Positions 1 through 11,973 of a stretch of DNA of 12,087 nt are shown one piece after another. Source of the DNA: Anaerolineae bacterium (lineage in GTDB: Bacteria; Chloroflexota; Anaerolineae; JAFGEY01); contig JAFGEY010000328.1 of the NCBI GenBank assembly GCA_016931365.1, positions 1 to 12,087 of the forward strand, in the 5' to 3' direction. Each line of letters begins with the position of its first letter. Within the stretch, counting starts at the first letter, position 1. The notes beneath the pieces are model-generated. The model did not search any database and was not told the DNA's origin. It saw only the letters and a program-made list of their open reading frames with translations. A program made the translations under genes and the position numbers.

Positions 1-243
1 GCCGTCCTGCCAGTGATAGTCGTCGGCAAAGCAGCCGCCCGGCCAGCGGAGCACCGCCGGCTTGAGCCGTTTCAGTGCGGCGATCACGTCGTTGCGGAAC
101 CCGGCCGTGTTGGGGATCGGCGAGTCTTCGCCCACCCAGATGCCGTCATAGATGCAGCGGCCCAGGTGCTCGGCAAAGTGTCCATAGATGTTGCGGCTGA
201 TGACACCGATCGGATCGTTAGGATTGATCGAAATACGTGCCAT
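1..243 (-). CDS. Alpha-N-arabinofuranosidase, GH51 (N-terminal part, cut by window edge)
   Basis: Only the first 81 residues are present; the gene runs off the window at base 1. GH51 enzymes release terminal alpha-L-arabinofuranosyl residues from arabinans, arabinoxylans and oligosaccharides by a retaining mechanism in a TIM barrel. Visible hallmarks are [17 protein letters not shown] at residues 18-34, [11 protein letters not shown] at 36-46 and [14 protein letters not shown] at 65-78, all highly typical of the first barrel strands of this family. The two catalytic glutamates lie further on and cannot be checked. The ATG at 243 is supported by a strong GGAGG five bases upstream (249-253). 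There is no signal peptide, so it should be cytoplasmic and act on imported oligosaccharides. It follows the ceramidase-fold gene on the same strand after a 160-base gap holding a repeat. Confidence 0.93.
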
Positions 244-247
244 TGCT

Positions 248-253
248 TCCTCC
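248..253 (-). promoter_or_regulatory. Shine-Dalgarno of the GH51 gene
   Basis: GGAGGA on the minus strand sits four bases before the ATG at 243 and fixes that start. Confidence 0.7.
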
Positions 254-295
254 TTGAAATGCTTTTATTTGTAATCGTTCGGCAGAGACATCCTG

Positions 296-384
296 ACAGG
301 ATTTACAGGATAAACAGGATATTTCAAGATACCTTGCGAATTCAAGTTCAATCCTGTAAATCATGAAAATCTCGTTCATCTTGT
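296..384. repeat. ACAGGAT-type 9-nt tandem repeat, inverted pair (copy A)
   Basis: The left arm (296-331) is four 9-nt units on the plus strand: ACAGGATTT, ACAGGATAA, ACAGGATAT, TTCAAGATA. The right arm (351-384) read on the minus strand is ACAAGATGA, ACGAGATTT, TCATGATTT and the start of ACAGGATTG. The two arms are therefore head-to-head arrays of the same degenerate unit rather than a perfect palindrome. The element fills most of the gap between the ceramidase-fold gene and the GH51 gene. Related copies are at 2949-2975, 5384-5452 and 10610-10677. Confidence 0.75.
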
Positions 385-403
385 GCAAATTACCTTTGTT
401 TGC

Positions 404-1726
404 CTACCCCACTGAACGTCTGTGTTCTACCAATTGATTCAAGAGACCAAGACAGCGCTCGGCGAGGATGCCCGCCGCCTCCGGATCGACCTGGCAGGCC
501 ATCGTCACTTCATAGCCGCCGTCGGGGTAGGCGTCTGCCGTCGGCACATAGCCGATGTAGCCGTTGGCATAGCCGGCGAAAAAGGTGTCGGCCCAGGGCG
601 ACGCCGCTTTGACCTGCACGCCGATCTGGTTGAAAATCTCGCCCGGTGCGCCGACGATGCCCAGATCGCCCACCCGCAGGGCCTGGATTTCGGCCTCGAC
701 CGGGGCCAGCACGCCATCCGTCCAACTGTGCAGCGCCGCGCGGGCGCGTTCCAGCCGCAGCCCGATCCACCACAGGTGGCTTTCCAATACGCCCTCGCGT
801 TCGAGGCACTGCCGCTCCGCTTCCAACTCGGCGACCAGCGCCGCCGCGTTTTCCTGCGATCCGTAGCGCATCCGGGGCAGGTGCGCCACCTCGGAAACGA
901 CGCCCAGCCCGGACGCCGGGTGCGGCGTAATTTGCTCCCACACGCGCACCACCTCGCAGCCGAGCCGCGTGCCGAGCGTGCGCGCCGGTTCGTAGGACGG
1001 CTCCATCCACACGGCGTTGATGTCGCCGCAAGCGCCCTGCACAAAAAGACAGGTCGCCCCGGTCAACTGCTCGACCGCCGCGCGCATCGTGCCGGGATAG
1101 TCGGCCGAGATGTGATCGATCTGGCCCGTCTGCGACACAGGATGGCACTGAAAGTTGACCAGGCAGGCAAGCGGGTTCCCGTCGAGTGCGTCGATGCGCA
1201 GCACCCCCACCGCCGAGTCTTTCGGCCCGCCCGGATTCTGCCCCAGAACCACCTGGCCGTCGGGGCGCTTTTCGCGCCGGTTGACGCCAATGTCCGACTC
1301 GCTCCAGCCCACACCCAGCGATGCCAGCTGCACGTTGGCGAGCGCTTCCTGCGTCACCCCGGCCAAAATGTGGATCAGGTTGGCGCGGTAGGACTCGACG
1401 ACCGGATTGGCCCGGTTGCGAAAGGCGTCCGGGCCATAGTGGGTGTGCGTACAGGTCACCATCACCGCCTCGGGGTCGATGCCCGCGCGCGCCTGCACCG
1501 CCGCGCGCACCTCGGCGACGGTTTGGTCGTCCAAGCCGAGCAGGTCGCAGGCCAGAAGGGCAACCTTTTTGTCGCCCTCGACAAAGACCAGCGCCGCCGC
1601 CAGCAGCGGATCGTGCTGGCGGGTCAGCGGGCCGCGCGCCGCAAAGCCAATCGAGGGGATGCCGACCGGCGGGGTGATGTCGGCGCGGGCCAGGCCAACC
1701 GAAATACCGTCCATTGATTCTGTCAT
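404..1726 (-). CDS. Neutral/alkaline ceramidase-fold hydrolase (N-terminal domain family), cytoplasmic
   Basis: 440 residues, matching the N-terminal catalytic domain of neutral/alkaline ceramidases (PF04734) without the C-terminal Ig-like domain. The metal-site motifs are present: TCTHTHYGPD at 91-100 (H94/H96), NFQCHPVSQT at 191-200 (H195), APGEIFNQ at 360-367 (E363) and ANGYIGYVPT at 387-396 (Y390/Y393), then the usual DGGYE at 402-406. The family's nucleophile motif GDVSPN is replaced by GDINAV at 234-239, so the serine position is N237. It is therefore a zinc hydrolase of this fold whose substrate is unlikely to be ceramide. There is no signal peptide. Its ATG overlaps the TGA of the GH172 gene upstream (ATGA, 1723-1726), which implies translational coupling; a weak AAAGGA also precedes it. 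Family assignment is secure, substrate is unknown. Confidence 0.85.
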   Translation of the reverse strand: MTESMDGISVGLARADITPPVGIPSIGFAARGPLTRQHDPLLAAALVFVEGDKKVALLACDLLGLDDQTVAEVRAAVQARAGIDPEAVMVTCTHTHYGPDAFRNRANPVVESYRANLIHILAGVTQEALANVQLASLGVGWSESDIGVNRREKRPDGQVVLGQNPGGPKDSAVGVLRIDALDGNPLACLVNFQCHPVSQTGQIDHISADYPGTMRAAVEQLTGATCLFVQGACGDINAVWMEPSYEPARTLGTRLGCEVVRVWEQITPHPASGLGVVSEVAHLPRMRYGSQENAAALVAELEAERQCLEREGVLESHLWWIGLRLERARAALHSWTDGVLAPVEAEIQALRVGDLGIVGAPGEIFNQIGVQVKAASPWADTFFAGYANGYIGYVPTADAYPDGGYEVTMACQVDPEAAGILAERCLGLLNQLVEHRRSVG

Positions 1727-2928
1727 CGTGGTTTTCCTTTACACACCTTGCCGCATTTGCAGAGACGCTTCAAAATGAACAACCCAAAAGCCAGTGCCGC
1801 GCCCCACAGCGGGCTGGTAAAGAGCGCAAACTGGAGCCAATTTTCGCGCGTGGGCGTCGGCAGGCGCTGTTCCACCGGCGGCAGCGCGGGGAAGGGCGTA
1901 TGCGGCTCGGTTTGATACCAATAGGCGACGCTGATATAGTCGGTCTGCACCTGGTTGGTGTAGCCGTGATCGATGTCAAAGACCAGCGACTTGGCAAACG
2001 GGATGGGGTCGTCGACGTGAAAGCGATACGCCGCGCAGCGCGAGGCGGCATAACTGCGCACGGTGCAGCCCCAGTGCGGCGCGCTGTACGGCCCCTTGCT
2101 GAAATAAAAACCGCTGTTGAAATAATCTTCGTTGCCGGTGCCGGTGACGGAGGGTGTTTTCTCGCCGTCGACGTAGACGCTCTCCCAGCCTTCGAGCATA
2201 CCCATGCCAATCGCCTCAGGAAAGAGCGCGCTGACCCAACTCCTCGTCTCCCCGGCCCGGCGGATCATCTGGAGCGGATCGAACCAGCGGCCGGTCTTTT
2301 GCATCCACAGGTGCAGCCCGGCAAAATGGCCCTGCCCTTCGGCTTCCAGCACGCGATAGGGTTCGCGGTGCCGGGTTGGATTCTCGCGCCGCCATTGGGC
2401 GTGAAAGCGCAGCGGCGAAGGCTGCTCATTCAGTTCGATGTACTGCACCTGGAAAAAGAGCGCCGGGCAGGGCTTATCGGCTTCGTTCGTCACCTCGATG
2501 CGGCAGCCCTCGCTGAACGGCATCGGAAAGCGGCAGTTGTAACCGCCGCTGGTGCAGCTCAACGGCTCGGCGAGATAGTGGGTATACTTGCCCCACGGCA
2601 CGCCGAAAAACTCGCCCAAGGGCGCTTCGACTGAGGGCATCTCTTCGCCGTCCCAGTAAAAGCGCAGCACCAGGTGGTGGTTGAAATTGACCCCGCCGGC
2701 CATCGGCTGCATGATCGTCATCCAGATGCGCAGGATAGTGCCCGCGCCGGCAACGTCGGCAAGGGTATACGTCTCGCCGGGCGCAATTTGCACGCTCTTG
2801 CCCGGCTCGCCGATGCCGATTGCCCTGGCCATCAGGTCGGGCGGCGTCTGGCGGCCCTGGCTGCTGACCTGGCGCATTTTGCCCTCGCGCAGGTGAACAA
2901 GGTTGCCGAGTCCACGATCAGGTAACAT
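1723..2928 (-). CDS. GH172 (DUF2961) glycoside hydrolase with C-terminal membrane-like tail
   Basis: 401 residues from the ATG at 2928, chosen because AAGGAG lies six bases upstream; the open frame reaches 2985 only by reading through a repeat. GH172 members cleave alpha-D-fructofuranosides or alpha-D-arabinofuranosides, and no single substrate can be assigned here. Family landmarks are the N-terminal segment rich in G/R/S (about residues 6-27), APLGEFFGVPWGKY at 102-115, GTGNEDYFNSGFYF at 263-276 with probable catalytic E267, and YRFHVDDPIPF at 301-311. I could not place the second catalytic glutamate. After the normal end of the domain (about residue 352) there is a Pro-rich stretch and then a hydrophobic helix at about 365-387, followed by a Cys/Lys/Arg-rich tail. 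No N-terminal signal peptide is seen. It is the first gene of a probable operon with the ceramidase-fold and GH51 genes. Confidence 0.88.
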   Translation of the reverse strand: MLPDRGLGNLVHLREGKMRQVSSQGRQTPPDLMARAIGIGEPGKSVQIAPGETYTLADVAGAGTILRIWMTIMQPMAGGVNFNHHLVLRFYWDGEEMPSVEAPLGEFFGVPWGKYTHYLAEPLSCTSGGYNCRFPMPFSEGCRIEVTNEADKPCPALFFQVQYIELNEQPSPLRFHAQWRRENPTRHREPYRVLEAEGQGHFAGLHLWMQKTGRWFDPLQMIRRAGETRSWVSALFPEAIGMGMLEGWESVYVDGEKTPSVTGTGNEDYFNSGFYFSKGPYSAPHWGCTVRSYAASRCAAYRFHVDDPIPFAKSLVFDIDHGYTNQVQTDYISVAYWYQTEPHTPFPALPPVEQRLPTPTRENWLQFALFTSPLWGAALAFGLFILKRLCKCGKVCKGKPR

Positions 2929-2934
2929 GATTCG

Positions 2935-2940
2935 CTCCTT
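2935..2940 (-). promoter_or_regulatory. Shine-Dalgarno deciding the GH172 start
   Basis: AAGGAG on the minus strand, six bases before the ATG at 2928. It argues against the longer open frame starting at 2985, whose extra 19 codons are repeat sequence. Confidence 0.75.
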
Positions 2941-2948
2941 TCGTTTGC

Positions 2949-2975
2949 ACAGGATTAACAAGATTTTCAGGATGA
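2949..2975. repeat. ACAGGAT-type 9-nt tandem repeat, single arm (copy B)
   Basis: Three plus-strand units: ACAGGATTA, ACAAGATTT, TCAGGATGA. No inverted partner is seen nearby, so this is a solo arm. It lies just upstream of the GH172 Shine-Dalgarno and would fall in that gene's leader. Confidence 0.65.
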
Positions 2976-3058
2976 AACAGAACAAAAGCTATACCGCTCT
3001 CAGTCACAAAACGCGTTTTTCAGCGCGGCGATGCCTTCGACAGGCTCAGGCCAGGCAA

Positions 3059-3240
3059 TCACCTGGACGGCGGAATCCCCCACAGACGCACCGTGCCATC
3101 CGACGCTCCCGTCACCAACAAAGTACCGTCAGACGAGAAAAGCGCACGGCGGACGCCCGATCGATACCCCGCCAATGTGCCTGCGGACAGGCGTTCTCCC
3201 GTATTCACATCCAACAACACAACCATCGCGTCCCACGACC
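3059..3240 (-). pseudogene. Frameshifted C-terminal tail of the WD40 lipoprotein (rest of blade 13 and blade 14)
   Basis: In the neighbouring minus frame the sequence continues as good WD40 protein: AMVVLLDVNTGERL, then VRRALFSSDGTLLVTGASDG and TVRLWGIPPSR, ending at a TGA at 3059-3061. The switch out of the main frame must occur near 3225-3240 and equals skipping one base (+1) around the GGGACGCG on the minus strand. After the switch the main frame gives Cys/Arg-rich non-WD40 sequence and stops at 3129. Read together, the repaired gene would span 3059-5123 and encode about 687 residues. It may be a real mutation or a consensus error. Confidence 0.82.
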
Positions 3241-5123
3241 AAGATGTTGTCGTCGGGTGAAAAGGCCAGGTTCCAAATTTTTCTGTTCAAATCAGACCAG
3301 GTATACAATATCTCGCCGGTCTCGGCGTTCCTCAACCAGACGACGCCTTCATAGCTTCCAGTGGCCAGCAGCCGGTCATCACTCGACCAGGCCGGGAGTG
3401 CAGACAAAACATAGTCATCTGGAACTGGCATTTGCAGCAGTAGTTCTCCCGTCTCCGCATCATACACCGATGAAGCAGAACTCCCCGCAGTCGCCAGCCT
3501 GGTGCCATTGGAGGAAAACGCCATTCTCGCTCCCGCACCATCATCGTTTAGCAAATGTCGTCTTTGCCCCGTCTCGACTTCATAGACGACTGTCCAATGC
3601 CTGTACCCGCCGACGGCAACCAAGCTGCCGTCGGGTGATAGGGCAAGGCCGTCCAAAGAGTCTTGATCAAAGACCCGCAGTCGCTGGCCGGTCGCCGTAT
3701 CCCATATCCAGGCTGCTGGATCATTCATATTTCCTACACTTGACGCCAGGATCGTGCCATCAGCAGAGAGAGCCAAGTGTTCGATGCCACTTTTGTGACC
3801 GCTAAGGGTACGCGCGATCTGCCCGATTTTCGTATTCCACAGATATATCTGATTATTAGAAAAATATGAAACAAATACGTCGTTGCGCAGCGAAACGGCC
3901 AGACCTGTGACCTTGTAGAGATATGTGCCCAGCTTTTTCGCAAGTTTGCCTGTCTCGACATTCCACAAGCGTATCATCTCTTCAAACTGTCCTGATGACG
4001 CCAGCGTCTTGCCATCGGGGGTGAAGGCCAGCGTTTCCACAGGTGATGTGGAATCTGTCAATATACATACCAAGCTCCCCGTTTCCACATCCCACAGCCT
4101 GATCGTGCGATCCCCTGAGCCGGAGGCCAGTGTCTTGCCATCAGGAGAAAAGACCAAACTGGTCGCAGCCGGAAGATGCCCTTCCAGGCTGTTCAACAGT
4201 TCTCCGGTTTGGGCATTCCAAAACTGTACCAGCCCGTCAGATGTTCCGGTAGTCAAGATCCTGCCATCAGGCGAAAAGGCAAGACCCCATGCTACTGCGG
4301 TGAACTTGTCCAGAGCATACACCAAAGCGCCCGTCTGAGCATCCCACACCCGCACCGTCCTGTCCAGCGAGCTCGAAGCAAGCAAGGCAGCGTCAGGCGA
4401 AAAGGTCAGACGCCGCATTCGTGAAGTATGGCCTTCGAGTGTGTGCAAGCGTTTGACCTGTCCGAGATTCCATATCCATATCGTCTCCTCCTCTGATACC
4501 GCGATCAGGTCAGCGCCTTCTGAGAAAACCACAGCCCTCCGATCATAGCCCATTCCTTGTACGTCGCTTTGCAGTCGTAATTCGTTCAAACACTCGCCTG
4601 TGTCTGTATCCCATGTCCAAACAATCGCCTCGCCTGTTTGGGCAAAGAGCCTGGAGCCATCCGCCGAGAAGGCCATACCGCTCACCCAGGTCGGCGTCTC
4701 GATGAACCGCACTATCTCGAACGTTTGTGCATCGTACAGCCAGATACCGATTGTGGTTCCCACAGCCAGCAGCTTGCCGTCGGGGCTAAAGGTCACGTGT
4801 TTTACATATCCCTTGCCCCAGATGGCCAATTCCTGAATCTGGTCTGCATTCTGCGGCGTGATCGGCTCCACTGGCAGCGGCACCGGCGTGCCGGCCAGGA
4901 CGGGCAGGGCCGGGGTGGGCGTGGGAGTGGGAGTAGAGGTCGGGAAGGGTGTGGAAGAGGGGGCAAGGATCGACGTTGTTGTCGGCTGGAGGGTGGTGAT
5001 CTGTGTGATAGGCACTGGGGTAAACACATCCGTCACGGGCAGCGGAGTTCCCCGGCAGGCAGAAAGGAGCAGGGCAAGCGGCAGGAGCACGCCCGCATAC
5101 CGGCGCACAATGGCCTCGATCAT
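3129..5123 (-). CDS. WD40-repeat lipoprotein (C-terminus frameshifted)
   Basis: 664 residues from the ATG at 5123, chosen because GGAGGT lies seven bases upstream and because it begins a textbook lipoprotein signal: basic MIEAIVRR, a hydrophobic stretch, and the lipobox LSAC with C23 as the lipidated residue. A Pro/Thr/Ser-rich linker follows (about 24-95), then WD40 repeats with the pattern FSPDGxxLAxG...WD/WN...TGE. I count twelve complete blades in frame, and a thirteenth that is cut by a frameshift near 3225-3240; the tail in the other frame adds its remainder plus a fourteenth. Fourteen blades would make two seven-bladed propellers. The protein should be anchored outside the cytoplasmic membrane and serve as a binding scaffold; no enzymatic domain is seen and its partner is unknown. 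The last ~35 residues of this frame are out-of-frame sequence. Confidence 0.88.
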   Translation of the reverse strand: MIEAIVRRYAGVLLPLALLLSACRGTPLPVTDVFTPVPITQITTLQPTTTSILAPSSTPFPTSTPTPTPTPALPVLAGTPVPLPVEPITPQNADQIQELAIWGKGYVKHVTFSPDGKLLAVGTTIGIWLYDAQTFEIVRFIETPTWVSGMAFSADGSRLFAQTGEAIVWTWDTDTGECLNELRLQSDVQGMGYDRRAVVFSEGADLIAVSEEETIWIWNLGQVKRLHTLEGHTSRMRRLTFSPDAALLASSSLDRTVRVWDAQTGALVYALDKFTAVAWGLAFSPDGRILTTGTSDGLVQFWNAQTGELLNSLEGHLPAATSLVFSPDGKTLASGSGDRTIRLWDVETGSLVCILTDSTSPVETLAFTPDGKTLASSGQFEEMIRLWNVETGKLAKKLGTYLYKVTGLAVSLRNDVFVSYFSNNQIYLWNTKIGQIARTLSGHKSGIEHLALSADGTILASSVGNMNDPAAWIWDTATGQRLRVFDQDSLDGLALSPDGSLVAVGGYRHWTVVYEVETGQRRHLLNDDGAGARMAFSSNGTRLATAGSSASSVYDAETGELLLQMPVPDDYVLSALPAWSSDDRLLATGSYEGVVWLRNAETGEILYTWSDLNRKIWNLAFSPDDNILVVGRDGCVVGCEYGRTPVRRHIGGVSIGRPPCAFLV

Positions 5124-5246: not shown

Positions 5247-5268
5247 ATCAGCGACAGTCGGGCCGCAT

Positions 5269-5298
5269 AAAAACTGTCATTCCCGCGCAAGCGGGAAT
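5269..5298 (-). terminator. Probable Rho-independent terminator of the GT8-methyltransferase operon
   Basis: On the minus strand ATTCCCGC-TTGC-GCGGGAAT (5279-5298) is a perfect 8-bp stem with a 4-base loop, followed five bases later by TTTTT (5269-5273). It lies about 195 bases past the methyltransferase stop and before the WD40 gene. The repeat element may have been co-opted as a terminator. Confidence 0.5.
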
Positions 5299-5337
5299 CC
5301 AAAAGCCGTTCTGGATGCCCGCTTACGCGGGAATGAC
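5276..5337. repeat. Inverted repeat of the GTCATTCCCGC(n)GCGGGAAT family
   Basis: Arms at 5276-5300 and 5313-5337 are near-perfect inverted copies of a 25-base unit. Each arm is itself a small hairpin: an 8-bp stem at 5279-5298 and a 5-bp CCCGC/GCGGG stem within the second arm. Repeats of this look are common dispersed intergenic elements in many bacteria. Confidence 0.8.
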
Positions 5338-5383
5338 GGCTGCTACCTGGCCAACCCCGGTTTAGTGTGGTGCTACCCAAACA

Positions 5384-5452
5384 GACAGGATTGACAAGAT
5401 TTACAGGATAAAAATGATAGGAGAGCATCTTGTTCATCCTGTAAATCCTGTC
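5384..5452. repeat. ACAGGAT-type 9-nt tandem repeat, inverted pair (copy C)
   Basis: Left arm 5384-5409 on plus: ACAGGATTG, ACAAGATTT, ACAGGATAA after a leading G. Right arm 5427-5452 on minus: ACAGGATTT, ACAGGATGA, ACAAGAT after a leading G. The arms face each other across about 17 bases. Confidence 0.78.
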
Positions 5453-5493
5453 CAAGATTATTCCAGATAATGTCTAATAAAAACGGAGCAATC

Positions 5494-7393: not shown

Positions 7394-7576
7394 CTGTTCG
7401 GGTGCAGAATACAGTTCAGCAGACAATACAAGTTCCCCGTATATTCGAATACTCGTACTCGGCAAACCAAATCATCGTAGCAACTACTACACTTGGGTGA
7501 AAGTGCATTACTCTAGATCAGTACAAGGCTGCTGCTAGACCAGGCCTTGAATGGAAAATCACATACTTGCTTATCA

Positions 7577-7614
7577 ATTATACACCATTGTAGCTGAACT
7601 AACGGATCTGTCCA
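7577..7614 (-). promoter_or_regulatory. Promoter candidate for the GT8-methyltransferase operon
   Basis: On the minus strand TGGACA (7609-7614), 16 bases, TACAAT (7587-7592) is a good sigma-70-type pair. A perfect TATAAT (7577-7582) lies ten bases further with no matching -35. Both sit in an AT-rich gap in an otherwise GC-rich window, upstream of the GT8 gene and downstream of the GH38 stop. Confidence 0.5.
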
Positions 7615-7663
7615 ATTTTAGGGGTTCACTACAGTCCTCCGTCGGCACGTTTCGTTTTCCCAC

Positions 7664-10552
7664 TTATCCATCCCCGAATCCCGGCACTGTCCCCGGCGCG
7701 ATGTCCTCGCGGTGGGTCTCGCCCTCGTAAATCGCAAAGGCCGGGATGGCCAGCCGCAGGCGGAAGGTCATGACCTCGTGCGGCCGGAAGCGGATACTCA
7801 CCCGATCCTCGTCCCACTCAAAGGCCTCGCTCGCGATGGGTTCTTCAAGGTGGTTGGTCTCTTCGAACATCATCAACGGGGCGGCAAAACGGACGCGCGC
7901 CTCGGCGGCTTGCCCGGCGGTCTCGTACAGGCGGATCACCACCGGCGATCCCGGCCCCCAGTCCTCCTGCTCTAATTTGAACGCGCTGAGCACCACGTTC
8001 TCCGGCTCAACCTCTAAAAAGCCGAACGCCGGGGGCATGGCGTGGTTGATGCCAGGGGCGATCCACGGCGCGATCACCCCGGCCCGGCGCATCGCCTGGC
8101 GGGCGATCAGCGGCATGTTGAAGGCCCAGCCCCGGCGCACCGTGCCCGCCGCCTGCCAGGGGCCGCGATGCCCGTAGAGCGCCCAGTGCAGGTCGTGCTC
8201 GCCGATGTCGGCTTCCGGGGCCATGTCGGGAAAGCCGCGCAGCAGGGTCATGCGCAGGCGGGTTCCGAGCACGTCAAAGGCGTAGCGGCAGTCGTTGAGC
8301 AGGCTCACGCCGTACCCGTCGTTCGACAGGTCGATCCAGCGCTGGGCGGGCACCTCGGCCCCATCCGCCGGGCGAACGATTGAGCCAAGCGGCGCTTCAA
8401 AGGTCGCTGTGCCGCCCTCGACGGCGACCGGGAAAGCCACCTTGAGGCAGCGGTCGCGCTCGTACCAGTGCGCGTGCAGCCGGCAGTCGACGCAGGGCTG
8501 CCTGGCCCGGAGGGCGATTTCCTGGACGAAATAGGAATCCTGGTGGCGATAGGCAACGCGCACGGCGGCCTGCACCGGGCCGCGCCGCACGATCGCGACC
8601 GATTCGGGCGCGTCGAGGTCATCGACCCGGTCGGTGAGGGCGATGATCCAGGCGGTGCCCTCGTGCGGGATTTCGTCGATGACCTGGAGCACGTTGCCCG
8701 GCCCCCCCAGCGCCTCGCGCCCGGCCGCCTTGTCCCACACGCTGGCAATCTGGCCCGTTGTGGTGCTGATCGTCACCCGCAAGTCCTCATTTTCCAGCAC
8801 GATCGTCCCTTGCTCTTCGCGCGCGGTCGCACCACTGGTCATACCTGGAATGTCAGAAAAACTGACTGTGCGCGTCTGTTCGGCGATGGCCCGTGCGATC
8901 GCCTGTCGAATCCACCACGCGGCATACTCGTCAAATGAGCGATCTCGGGCATCGTCAAACTTTTTCATGGCTTCCAGCAGGCCGACCTTGCCCGCCTGGA
9001 CGAGATCGGCAAAATCAAAGCCGCGCTCGATGAATTGTCTGGCGATGTCGACGATCAGTTTCCGGTTTTCCCGGGCCAACGCCTGAAGCGACGGCGCGAG
9101 GTTGTCAAATTGGATGTCCAGATCGGGGTCGATTTCGTCCTGCGTTGCGAATATCGCCTGCTCGATCACGGACAGGTCCAGCTCTGGGCTTGAGGGTGGC
9201 TGCGTTCGAAAGACGCGGTAGCCCAGTGCGGGCACGTCCTGGGCCAAGAAAAGCAGATCGGCGTACCAGTAAGGCCCCTTTTGCCGCAGGTCGATCGTTT
9301 GCGTGGGCATCGCTTGCCCGTCGGTGTCGCAGATGGTGAGCTGATCCGGCAGCGCGTTCAGGCGCAACGTCACCTGCACCGGCTCGCTGCGCGTCCAGGC
9401 CAACGGGTTATAGACCACCAGCGGCGCGCCATCGCCGCGCGTGTCGAGCCGGGCGGCGATCTCGGCCAGCGAGGCGTCCAGCGTCTCGGCCATCACCTGC
9501 TCGACGCGGGCGTAATCGCGCTCGTTGTCGAGGTACACCCCGGCGCACGAGGTGCCGGGCAGCTCGTCGTGGAACTGGTGGTGCAACACGGCCCGCCAGG
9601 CGTCCTGCAGATCGACGCGCGGGTAGGAGGGCTTGCGCTGCAAAAACATGGCCAGGGTGGCAAAGCGTTCGACGGTCAGCAACAGCCCTTCCATCTGCCG
9701 GTTGCGCTGCTTGGCCCGCCCCACCGACGAGCACGAGCCGGTAGAGCCGCCGCCCAGCTCGCCGCGATAGACGGGCAGGTCGGGTTTGGCGGCCAGCACC
9801 CGGTCGAAAAAGGTCTGCGGCGTGGTATGGACAAAGCAGGGCGCGCCCGGCTCCCGCCGCAGCGCATCCAGGGCCTCGAAATCACCCTCGCGCGGCCCGC
9901 CGCCGTGATCGCCACGACCGTACAAAAAGAGCATCGCCCGGTCGCCGGTAAGCTCCCGCCACATACCCAGCACGTCGAACACGCGCGGGCCGAGGTCGGC
10001 GCTGTAGCCGTAGGCGGGGCTGTAGGCGAGCACGCGCGAGCCGTCGGGGCCTTCCCACCAAAAGTAAGGCCCGACCTTGTCGGGCACGCCGCGCCCGTAG
10101 AGCAGGCGATCGATGCCACAGCCCTTGAGCAGGGTCGGCAGGGTGTGCACGTGCCCCGAAAAAGCGTCCGGCGCCCAGGCCAGGGCAATCGCGCAGCCCA
10201 ATTCCTCGCGCGCATAGCGGCTGCCGAGCAGGTGCTGGCGGATAATCGACTCGCCGCCGGGCATCGTCTGATCGTACTCGCACCAGCCGTCGGCGACGAT
10301 CCAGCGCCCTTCGGCGATCCGTGCTTTGATTTCGGCAAACATCTCTGGATAGTGCTGTTTCATCGCTTCATAAAGCGCAAGCTGGCTCTGCACAAAAGTG
10401 AATTCGGGCACCGCGTCCATCATGCGCAGCACGCCGCGAAAGGTGTCGCGGGCGATGCGATGGACGGTCTCGTTCCACCGCCAGCGGTAGCCCAGGTCAA
10501 TGTGGGCGTGGCCGACGAGATAGACGGTGAAATTGGAAAAATCCTCGCTCAT
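7664..10552 (-). CDS. GH38 alpha-mannosidase with a nested sigma-70 region 2 domain
   Basis: 962 residues. GH38 enzymes are zinc-dependent retaining alpha-mannosidases. The N-terminal catalytic domain is intact: HAHIDLGYRW (15-24; zinc ligands H17, D19), AWAPDAFSGH (125-134; nucleophile D129), WWEGPDGSRVLAY (165-177) and HHQFHDELPGTS (324-335; ligand H328). The middle domain ends at PALGYRVFRT (441-450), and the C-terminal beta domain resumes at TIVLENEDLRVTI (583-595) and VWDKAAGREAL (605-615). Between them lies a segment that ordinary GH38 proteins do not have: a sigma-70 region 2 domain (about 492-565) with acidic and Gly/Thr linkers. Without it the protein would be about 830 residues, a normal length. 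Start at 10552 has GAGGAG seven bases upstream. No signal peptide, so cytoplasmic. Spaced 192 bases from the SelA-like gene by a repeat, so perhaps transcribed separately. Confidence 0.9.
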   Translation of the reverse strand: MSEDFSNFTVYLVGHAHIDLGYRWRWNETVHRIARDTFRGVLRMMDAVPEFTFVQSQLALYEAMKQHYPEMFAEIKARIAEGRWIVADGWCEYDQTMPGGESIIRQHLLGSRYAREELGCAIALAWAPDAFSGHVHTLPTLLKGCGIDRLLYGRGVPDKVGPYFWWEGPDGSRVLAYSPAYGYSADLGPRVFDVLGMWRELTGDRAMLFLYGRGDHGGGPREGDFEALDALRREPGAPCFVHTTPQTFFDRVLAAKPDLPVYRGELGGGSTGSCSSVGRAKQRNRQMEGLLLTVERFATLAMFLQRKPSYPRVDLQDAWRAVLHHQFHDELPGTSCAGVYLDNERDYARVEQVMAETLDASLAEIAARLDTRGDGAPLVVYNPLAWTRSEPVQVTLRLNALPDQLTICDTDGQAMPTQTIDLRQKGPYWYADLLFLAQDVPALGYRVFRTQPPSSPELDLSVIEQAIFATQDEIDPDLDIQFDNLAPSLQALARENRKLIVDIARQFIERGFDFADLVQAGKVGLLEAMKKFDDARDRSFDEYAAWWIRQAIARAIAEQTRTVSFSDIPGMTSGATAREEQGTIVLENEDLRVTISTTTGQIASVWDKAAGREALGGPGNVLQVIDEIPHEGTAWIIALTDRVDDLDAPESVAIVRRGPVQAAVRVAYRHQDSYFVQEIALRARQPCVDCRLHAHWYERDRCLKVAFPVAVEGGTATFEAPLGSIVRPADGAEVPAQRWIDLSNDGYGVSLLNDCRYAFDVLGTRLRMTLLRGFPDMAPEADIGEHDLHWALYGHRGPWQAAGTVRRGWAFNMPLIARQAMRRAGVIAPWIAPGINHAMPPAFGFLEVEPENVVLSAFKLEQEDWGPGSPVVIRLYETAGQAAEARVRFAAPLMMFEETNHLEEPIASEAFEWDEDRVSIRFRPHEVMTFRLRLAIPAFAIYEGETHREDIAPGTVPGFGDG
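8792..9193 (-). other. In-frame sigma-70 region 2 insert within the GH38 gene
   Basis: Residues about 454-587 of the GH38 protein. The core reads like primary sigma region 2: NRKLIVDIARQFIERG (496-511, region 2.1), DLVQAGKVGLLEAMKKFD (516-533, region 2.2), RSFDEYAAWWIRQAI (538-552, region 2.3) and ARAIAEQTRTVS (553-564, region 2.4). Residues 516-529 satisfy every position of the sigma-70 family signature PS00715 (bases 8966-9007). Regions 1.1, 3 and 4 are absent. By hand count bases 8821-9180 are about 58% GC, against 70-75% or more in most sampled 60-base lines of the same gene, though the line next to the right junction (8761-8820) is also about 57%. I found no target-site duplication. The border positions are approximate. 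Confidence 0.9.
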
Positions 10553-10584
10553 GATCTGCTCCTCGAGTCGGTGTTGTTCACTTT

Positions 10585-10700
10585 AACTGCTCGGCCTGCC
10601 CCGTATTTCGACAGGATGAACAAGATTTGCAGGATAAGACTTTGGTAAGCATCCTGTTCATCCTGTAAATTCTGTCAAAAGGCACTCAGGCCGAGCAATT
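10585..10700. repeat. ACAGGAT-type repeat (copy D, 10610-10677) framed by an outer 14-nt inverted repeat
   Basis: Inner arms: plus-strand ACAGGATGA, ACAAGATTT, GCAGGATAA from 10611, and minus-strand ACAGAATTT, ACAGGATGA, ACAGGATGC from 10676. Outside them, AACTGCTCGGCCTG (10585-10598) and CAGGCCGAGCAATT (10687-10700) are inverted copies with one mismatch. The other copies have no such frame. The whole fills the gap between the SelA-like stop and the GH38 start. Confidence 0.75.
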
Positions 10701-10744
10701 ACGTTCATTTGACCTTCCTGCAAGCTCGAAAACTTTCGGGAAGG

Positions 10745-11854
10745 TCAGCCAATGATCTCCCCAATCCGCCGCACGACGATCGCTTCCTCGCCCGGCTTGA
10801 GCGTCTGCGGGTTGACATAGACGCCGTGCTGGCCGGACGGGGCCAGGGCGATGCGCGGCCGGCCGTCGAGCAGGAGGTCGAGCAGGTCGTCGCGGCTGAG
10901 ACCGAGCGCCTGCGTGTCGAAGACAAGTTCGGCGCGCGGCATTGGCTGGCCGGCCTCGCTGGGAAAGTCGCGCCGCGCCGTGACGTGTGGGCGATCGGCA
11001 AAGGCGTCGATCACGGCTTGCACCTGCGCTTCGTATTGCTGCATCAATTGGTCTTGATCGAGGTTGAGATACCGGCGCACGGCAGCCATCAACCCGACCA
11101 ATTCTTCCTTGCCCACTTTCATCGGCCGGCCGATAAAGGCGCGCGGGCAGGCGTTGAATGCGCAGGCGTCAATCAGCGCTTGCCGCCCGACGACCAATCC
11201 GCTGCTTTGCGGGCCACACAGCCCCTTGCCTCCGCTGAACAGGGCCAGGTCGGCGCCCAGGTGGGTGAACCGCCACAGGTTTTCGACCGGCGGGATTTGC
11301 GCCGCCACGTCGACGATGAGGGGCACGCCGTGCCGCCGGGCGATCTCGATCCCTTGCTCCAGCGGCACCTGACCGCCCATGCGGGTGACATTGTAAAAGT
11401 AAAAAATGGCCGCCGTCCGCTCGGTGATCGCCTCTTCCAGTTCGTCAACCGTCGCGCCCTGCTCCGTGCCGATCTCGATCAGCTTGCCGCCGGCCTGGCG
11501 GACGGCAAAGTCATAGCCGACCCGCCCGCTGCGGTGGAGGATAACCTCGTTCTTGAGTCCGTCGGTGTAGGGCAGCCGGGCGCGCTTGTCGGGATCGAGG
11601 CCGGTGATGCACGCTGCGGTGCTGAGGGCCAGCCCGGCTGCCGCCCCGCAGGTGACATAGGCGGCCTCGTTGTGCGTCCACTCGGCAATTTTGCGCCCGA
11701 CCTTGACCTGCAACTCGTCCATGTCGACAAAGTACTGTGCGGCTTCGGCCATCGCCGTCAGCACTTCGGGCGGCATCAGCGAGCCGCCCAAGCGGGTGAG
11801 CGTCGCGTAACCGTTGATGATGGGCGTTATACCCAAATCGTCATAGATACTCAT
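10745..11854 (-). CDS. SelA-like PLP-dependent enzyme (D-glucosaminate-6-phosphate ammonia-lyase/DgaE-type)
   Basis: 369 residues from the ATG at 11854, which has AAGGA seven bases upstream; the open frame to 11941 only adds repeat sequence. Fold type I PLP enzyme of the SelA-related family, whose best-known member removes ammonia from D-glucosaminate 6-phosphate. Seen: GYATLTRLGGSLMPPEVL (15-32), the phosphate-binding TCGAAAGLAL (68-77), HRSGRVGYD (107-115), PLIVDVAAQ (178-186) with D182 for the pyridine nitrogen, and ALFSGGKGLCGPQSSG (204-219) with K210 as probable PLP lysine. It does not act as a tRNA(Sec) selenium transferase in all likelihood, since the SelA N-terminal domain is missing. 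It directly follows an amidohydrolase of the EF_0837 type, the usual partner of this family, 124 bases away across an inverted repeat. Substrate unproven. Confidence 0.85.
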   Translation of the reverse strand: MSIYDDLGITPIINGYATLTRLGGSLMPPEVLTAMAEAAQYFVDMDELQVKVGRKIAEWTHNEAAYVTCGAAAGLALSTAACITGLDPDKRARLPYTDGLKNEVILHRSGRVGYDFAVRQAGGKLIEIGTEQGATVDELEEAITERTAAIFYFYNVTRMGGQVPLEQGIEIARRHGVPLIVDVAAQIPPVENLWRFTHLGADLALFSGGKGLCGPQSSGLVVGRQALIDACAFNACPRAFIGRPMKVGKEELVGLMAAVRRYLNLDQDQLMQQYEAQVQAVIDAFADRPHVTARRDFPSEAGQPMPRAELVFDTQALGLSRDDLLDLLLDGRPRIALAPSGQHGVYVNPQTLKPGEEAIVVRRIGEIIG

Positions 11855-11861
11855 TGTGCTG

Positions 11862-11866
11862 TCCTT
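11862..11866 (-). promoter_or_regulatory. Shine-Dalgarno deciding the SelA-like start
   Basis: AAGGA on the minus strand seven bases before the ATG at 11854. It rejects the longer frame from 11941, whose extra 29 codons lie in the 18-nt inverted repeat region. Confidence 0.7.
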
Positions 11867-11870
11867 GTGA

Positions 11871-11973
11871 GTAGGGGCGAGGCATCCCGGGACGGAATCT
11901 GTTCGACCGGCCTCATTCTTTTGGACGAGCATCCCGGTCAACGAGCTATTGCCGAGGGATGCCTCGCCCCTAC
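11871..11973. repeat. Perfect 18-nt inverted repeat (GTAGGGGCGAGGCATCCC)
   Basis: GTAGGGGCGAGGCATCCC at 11871-11888 is exactly inverted at 11956-11973, separated by 67 bases. It occupies nearly all of the gap between the amidohydrolase stop and the SelA-like Shine-Dalgarno. No T-run follows on the minus strand, so it does not look like a simple terminator; a REP-like or mRNA-stabilising role in a shared transcript is possible. Confidence 0.8.

Follow-up and report, generated by a model that had tools for sequence, protein, structure and literature searches.

Can a sugar-cleaving enzyme carry a piece of the transcription machinery within its own chain? The question is raised by one gene on contig JAFGEY010000328.1 of an Anaerolineae bacterium (12,087 nucleotides, analyzed over its full length and referred to below as the window), in which a glycoside hydrolase family 38 (GH38) alpha-mannosidase is interrupted by a domain of the sigma-70 family. 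An earlier note, made from the DNA letters, had claimed that sigma-70 region 2 is nested within the mannosidase in one uninterrupted frame, and both the open frame and the Pfam domains confirm this. Positions 7664..10552 on the minus strand form a single open frame of 962 codons, encoding a 962-residue protein in which GH38N, the middle domain, Sigma70_r2, GH38C and GH38C2 follow each other, each exceeding its Pfam cut-off (25, 31.1 and 25 bits, as curated, for the GH38 N-terminal, middle and C-terminal domains, against 187, 58 and 135 bits scored; Table 1). On balance, we favor a real domain insertion, found in one sequence, with the inserted domain most likely being a passenger.

The sigma identity of the insert is supported by several collections. 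Sigma70_r2 (PF04542) matches residues 492-562 at 54.0 bits (cut-off 24, E-value 1.5e-14) and covers positions 1-71 of the 71 in the profile. The insert alone scores 93 bits with the NCBIfam model RpoD_Cterm (E-value 2e-26), which is below the equivalog cut-off of 354 and involves 75 of the 238 model positions, and it passes the model of the sigma-70 superfamily, TIGR02937 (56.9 bits, cut-off 42.9). Within the best 25 of 51 NCBIfam families the ranking is RpoD (93 bits), RpoS (85), the sigma70-ECF (extracytoplasmic function) superfamily (57) and SigB/F/G (48). Because the RpoD and RpoS models outscore the others, the insert is taken, from its sequence, to be of the primary or group 2 type. In addition, 68 distinct PDB sequences match it at an E-value of at most 1e-3, and all those among the best 60 are sigma factors. 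The earlier note had made its claim depend on such a match, which was found in Pfam, NCBIfam and the PDB sequences and lies far beyond chance.

Residues 516-529, read by eye, appear to agree with the PROSITE pattern PS00715. The phmmer alignment to SigA (8x6f) begins at residue 15 of the insert, and in our own reading residues 468-491 are a trace of region 1.2, with a weak match and low to middling model confidence. Regions 3 and 4 (PF04539 and PF04545) are not among the five families found at E-values up to 0.1 in the 962 residues. Structure modeling followed by Foldseek comparison predicts that the insert has the fold of sigma domain 2; the top rows show a root-mean-square deviation of about 8 and TM-scores of about 0.5, because the ends of the insert model are unsure. 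In the model of the whole protein, confidence in the insert is 42-62 per ten-residue block (451-570), since no other row of the alignment covers it, which makes the modeled position of the domain against the enzyme tentative.

The insert lies in the linker between two domains of the enzyme, as the earlier note had stated, a position supported by the domain order, the linker lengths of relatives and the predicted structure. The limits given there (residues 454-587) hold roughly, and are refined to residue 450 to about 575-582 by comparison with relatives (8807-9205 at widest) and to codons 448-588 by composition. Our alignment comprised 48 GH38 proteins: the window protein together with 47 relatives picked out of the 119 that were listed. 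Between residue 446 and L586 the window protein has 141 residues, compared with 23-34 in 47 of 47 aligned relatives (28, 31 and 30 in the relatives P0002, P0003 and P0007). The predicted structure puts the insert between a strand of the small beta domain (444-451) and the strand that starts the large sandwich (576-580). The graft therefore appears to replace a length-variable linker, where the least harm would be expected.

A scan for intervals of low GC content at third codon positions (GC3), made independently of the alignment, recovers the same stretch. The best low-GC3 interval of the gene covers codons 448-588 (8789-9211; GC3 0.674), with a log-likelihood gain of 13.75; in 40 codon permutations the gain averages 4.64 and does not exceed 9.56. 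As permuting codons erases natural clustering of GC3, windows of the same gene served as a second control: codons 452-582 have a GC3 of 0.679, whereas the minimum across 570 overlapping 131-codon windows outside the insert is 0.779. Low GC3 marks an origin different from that of the host gene, not necessarily from another organism. Around the insert nothing was seen that would mark a mobile element beyond repeats near the joints, which are short (9-19 nucleotides) and mostly imperfect in a repeat search without shuffle control. A tRNA search found none, and no Rfam match for a regulatory RNA reached gathering scores. Promoter-like and terminator-like sites in 7400-10800 are as frequent as expected (1 observed against 0.7, and 3 against 3.0, respectively). 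A separate sigma product was considered and rejected: the Sigma70_r2 match contains a single ATG, which encodes residue 529 and falls in region 2.2, and we read no stop between the insert and GH38C. A GTG is present upstream of the sigma domain and may serve as an internal start, whose product would remain fused to GH38C.

GH38 homologues were surveyed for the insert, as the earlier note had proposed. Among the 120 GH38 matches listed of 440, PF04542 occurs in the window's own protein only, and no other protein joins PF04542 to a GH38 domain among the listed matches to the insert (52, and the best 120 of 159). P0002, P0003 and P0007, the last of which is a named alpha-mannosidase of an Anaerolineae bacterium, share the full GH38N-mid-38C-38C2 architecture, but have a short linker and no sigma domain. 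P0002 and P0003 are 90.4% and 90.0% identical to the window protein over 824 GH38 positions, and their identity to each other in this part is 0.916. With P0004 as outgroup, the GH38 part has 13 private changes in the window protein and 17 each in P0002 and P0003; the shared sites (4, 5 and 5) do not resolve the branching order of the three. Because these relatives of about 90% identity lack the insert, it would either have been gained on the branch of the window protein or have been gained earlier and lost in P0002 and P0003; the insertion is probably later than the split from them. A scan of genome contigs gave one locus from 16 matched stretches, a distant GH38 protein (27% identity) in a Sigynarchaeota metagenome-assembled genome, and Sigma70_r2 had no match in that one genome (0 of 1). 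Another GH38 relative, P0092 (1341 residues), bears PF13520 and PF00324, presumably amino-acid permease families, and is either a second odd architecture or a fusion made by gene calling.

Searches for a close donor yielded no near donor, either among proteins of about 110-350 residues (52 matches among 490 candidates) or among those of about 358-1139 residues (159 matches among 2870 candidates, 120 listed). Leaving aside the window's own protein, the highest identity of the insert to the sigma proteins listed is 53%. In viral contigs 10 stretches matched a pattern, none of which encodes a relative of the insert; phage and plasmid records (18 and 114) are all below 60% identity, and none was counted as covering 80% of the query.

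The GH38 framework is intact, as the earlier note had it, judging by the domains, the catalytic-type residues and the predicted structure. Residues H17, D19, D129, H328 and D329 are invariant in 48 of 48 rows of the GH38 alignment; by analogy with Golgi mannosidase II, we take H17, D19, D129 and H328 to be the metal-binding and nucleophile residues. The whole-protein model has a confidence of at least 90 at 709 of 962 residues, and its closest structural matches are GH38 structures. Since the window protein has no more lineage-private changes than P0002 and P0003 (13 against 17 and 17), its GH38 part appears to change at a normal rate, without sign of decay. The mannosidase would be cytosolic and would have retained the cleavage of alpha-mannosides.

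Within the insert, residues were compared with those of E. coli sigma70, whose numbering equals the residue number minus 113, since insert residues 38-111 match 378-451 of the 613-residue sigma70 chain. The comparison set consisted of the 171 sigma matches listed (52 + 119), which were chosen by their likeness to the insert and many of which are near-identical. The insert retains N383, D403, Q406, F427, Y430, W433, W434, R436 and Q437. E407 and N409 are important for core binding, and both are replaced: E407 by A (E in 168 relatives, D in 3, A in none) and N409 by K (N in 130, T in 33, S in 5, A in 3, K in none). Replacements absent from all 171 relatives also occur on the side of the promoter, namely G424D (G in 167, N in 4), K426S (K in 138, R in 30), S428D (S in 165, I in 6) and T429E (T in 165, S in 5, G in 1), with S428D and T429E being neighboring acidic changes on the promoter-facing side. 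At position 425 the insert has R for Y, and R is not among the six commonest residues there. Of the residues that read the -10 element, F427, Y430, W433, W434, R436 and Q437 are kept, and positions 424, 425, 426, 428 and 429 are changed.

In a less redundant set of 33 sigma factors, the insert retains 24 of 33 positions conserved at 85% and loses 9. When each sigma factor was left out in turn, across a somewhat shorter span, 8 of 32 near-invariant positions of region 2 are lost from the insert and none of the 33 loses more than 5; at the 95% level 4 of 22 are lost, against a maximum of 3. The net charge of regions 2.3-2.4 is -1 in the insert and +1 to +5 in the 33 relatives, and that of the whole of region 2 is +1, with one relative lower (-3) and 32 higher.

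Of the altered and retained residues, Y425, T429, Y430, W433, W434 and Q437 are named in PMC4496690. As described there, the -11 adenine stacks with Y430, W433 is thought to be a wedge and Q437 reads position -12; Y425, Y430, W433 and W434 are important in separating the strands, and the bent non-template strand has its fulcrum at T429 (PMC4496690). Region 2.2 is described as binding the beta-prime coiled coil (PMC4598750). Set against these contacts, much of the reader of the adenine is preserved, and the path of the strand has gained acid. The sigma fold would be kept, and its function would probably be lost or changed.

Table 1. Features of the mannosidase gene and its insert (positions in the window; residues of the 962-residue protein)
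Feature	Position	Strand	Basis
GH38 alpha-mannosidase gene with nested sigma domain 2	7664..10552	-	Open frame; Pfam GH38N, mid, 38C, 38C2, Sigma70_r2
GH38 N-terminal catalytic domain, residues 9-263	9764..10528	-	Glyco_hydro_38N, PF01074, 187 bits
Alpha-mannosidase middle domain, residues 272-364	9461..9739	-	Alpha-mann_mid, PF09261, 58 bits
Inserted stretch, residues 450-582 at widest, replacing short linker	8807..9205	-	Linker lengths; low-GC3 interval
Weak match to end of sigma region 1.2, residues 468-491	9080..9151	-	phmmer alignment to SigA 8x6f
Sigma-70 region 2 (2.1-2.4), residues 492-562	8867..9079	-	Pfam Sigma70_r2
Segment 516-529, region 2.2, matching PROSITE PS00715	8966..9007	-	Sequence reading
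GH38 C-terminal beta-sandwich, residues 586-773	8234..8797	-	Glyco_hydro_38C, PF07748, 135 bits
GH38 C2 beta-sandwich, residues 852-930	7763..7999	-	Glyco_hydro38C2, PF17677, 38 bits

A gene for a pyridoxal phosphate-dependent SelA-like enzyme (10745-11941, minus strand) immediately precedes the mannosidase gene in the same orientation. Further genes encode a neutral-ceramidase-like protein (PF04734) adjoining a DUF2961 protein (1-2985, minus strand), and the gene start at 1-243 resembles an alpha-L-arabinofuranosidase in our own reading of the sequence. On account of these further genes, the mannosidase may be part of a glycan-use neighborhood. At 3129-3300 (minus strand), a WD40-repeat gene ends in one frame while WD40-like sequence continues in another, the cause being either a frameshift that the organism carries or a mistake in the contig. 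Short repeats of the type ACAGGATTTACAGGAT are dispersed at 294-379, 2947-2983, 5383-5455 and 10609-10679, some as inverted pairs, and one such site lies just upstream of the mannosidase. An inverted repeat at 5261-5352 (44 nucleotides, 4-nucleotide gap, 77% complementary) lies between the genes for the methyltransferase and the WD40 protein.

The sequence of events that we propose starts with domain 2 of a primary-type (group 1/2) sigma factor, a stretch that begins near the end of region 1.2 and includes region 2.4, being inserted in frame into the GH38 linker. The sigma domain would fold on its own into a helical bundle that loops out from between two beta domains; its promoter-facing surface has become more acidic through G424D, K426S, S428D and T429E. 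Because regions 3 and 4 are missing, the nested domain would be unable to start transcription, and the bundle would be a tolerated passenger that no longer opens promoters. Residual docking on the beta-prime coiled coil of RNA polymerase is possible and probably weak. Several observations weigh against this account. The loss is mild at three of the eight positions (R to K, V to I, Y to F), the margin in the leave-one-out comparison is small (8 against 5, and 4 of 22 against 3 at the 95% level), and some group 3 sigma factors differ at E407. Since the searches yielded no close donor, the donor may already have had the changed residues, which would then not have arisen by decay. The retention of D403, Q406 and much of the -10 reader may point to constraint or to very recent insertion, because pure drift would not preferentially spare these residues. 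The fusion was found in one sequence, which gives no measure of selection on the insert, and low GC3 alone is no proof of foreign origin, because the gene of the window that encodes WD40 repeats is lower still in GC3 (0.615).

Of the three roles suggested in the earlier note, that of a passenger fits best; a tie to RNA polymerase and a decoy for anti-sigma factors found no positive evidence, given the single sequence, the lack of a sigma or anti-sigma domain among the families listed for the six other window genes scanned and the changed promoter- or core-facing positions. It would be a rather unlikely event for the whole arrangement to be an artefact of assembly or sequencing, in which the contig, but no living genome, would have a fragment of a sigma factor built into the mannosidase gene. 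That there is one member sequence on one contig, that composition shifts at both joints and that the window holds another irregular gene (the last WD40 repeats continuing in the other frame) would agree with such an error; it would, however, require two joints, both in frame, on the same strand and in one variable linker, which together excise one sigma domain. Moreover, the joints are not linked by a long repeat, the insert is at most 53% identical to any sigma protein listed, and its odd residues would not be anticipated in a piece of a normal, functioning sigma gene. We also consider it improbable that sigma domain 2 docks on the beta-prime coiled coil as a tether or competitor, coupling the enzyme to transcription or taking core from a sigma factor. 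The fold, D403, Q406 and the WWIRQ stretch are kept, and an enzyme located in the cytosol, as presumed here, would meet the polymerase; but E407A and N409K, at positions important for core binding, are each seen in none of the 171 relatives, the protein lacks regions 3 and 4, and the insert is in none of the 119 other GH38 proteins listed of 440.

The same surface changes bear on the remaining explanations. Promoter and core contacts that change while the fold is retained could be the signature of a decoy that holds an anti-sigma factor and frees the real sigma factor, and such mimicry is established in PhyR, which combines a response regulator and a sigma-factor domain (PMC5830050). We nevertheless give very little credence to a PhyR-like decoy here: neither sigma nor anti-sigma domains were found in the six other window genes scanned (for the WD40 gene, in the best 25 of 61 families), and no switch domain is attached. 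Primary-type sigma factors are also seldom known to be held by anti-sigma factors at domain 2 alone. The bundle might instead be kept as a structural spacer that alters oligomer packing or access to the active site, irrespective of its sigma descent, in line with its place between two beta domains and with changes on the DNA-facing surface alongside a fold that is predicted to persist; the family has oligomeric members, such as the tetrameric Ams1 of fission yeast (PMC7609781). A comparable spacer is present at this place in 0 of 47 aligned relatives, however, and we hold this doubtful, and less likely than a passenger. There is a similarly small chance that the captured primary-type domain 2 still docks on the beta-prime clamp or holds an anti-sigma factor, and so wires the mannosidase to transcription. 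Such a nested guest sigma domain with a regulatory role would, to our knowledge, be without parallel.

New proteins are known to arise through the insertion of domains into enzymes. The sigma-like domain of PhyR is of the ECF type. By sequence, both halves of the window protein belong to well-known families, it being the nesting that is unusual, and we file the protein as an enzyme with an inserted domain rather than as a sigma factor. Domain 2 of group 1/2 sigma-70 factors (RpoD, SigA, RpoS) shares with the insert a complete region 2 profile and the same predicted fold, at up to 53% identity among the matches listed; unlike these, the insert comes without region 3 or 4 and with a weak trace of region 1.2, and near-invariant residues are changed. 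PhyR-type mimics likewise have a sigma-like domain inside a non-sigma protein, but there it is joined to a response regulator (PMC5830050) and here a primary-type domain is nested in an enzyme, whose five Pfam families include no receiver domain. Sigma domains joined to other domains are described for cyanobacterial sigma factors with DUF6596, NB-ARC and TPR-MalT (PMC11119718) and for ECF41, whereas in the window protein the sigma domain is a guest inside an enzyme. The survey of cyanobacterial sigma factors reports additional domains at protein ends only (PMC11119718). No description of a fusion between a sigma factor and a GH38 or other glycosidase was found in the titles and abstract starts of the open-licence literature, outside of which most subscription journals lie.

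We know of no other piece of the transcription machinery nested in a glycosidase. The gene seemingly captures a domain graft soon after the event, with the host intact, the guest compositionally distinct and the nearest relatives lacking the insert. If the guest still bound polymerase, it would constitute a direct link between an enzyme and transcription; if it does not, it would be a clean example of a conserved fold that starts to drift once freed from its old partners.

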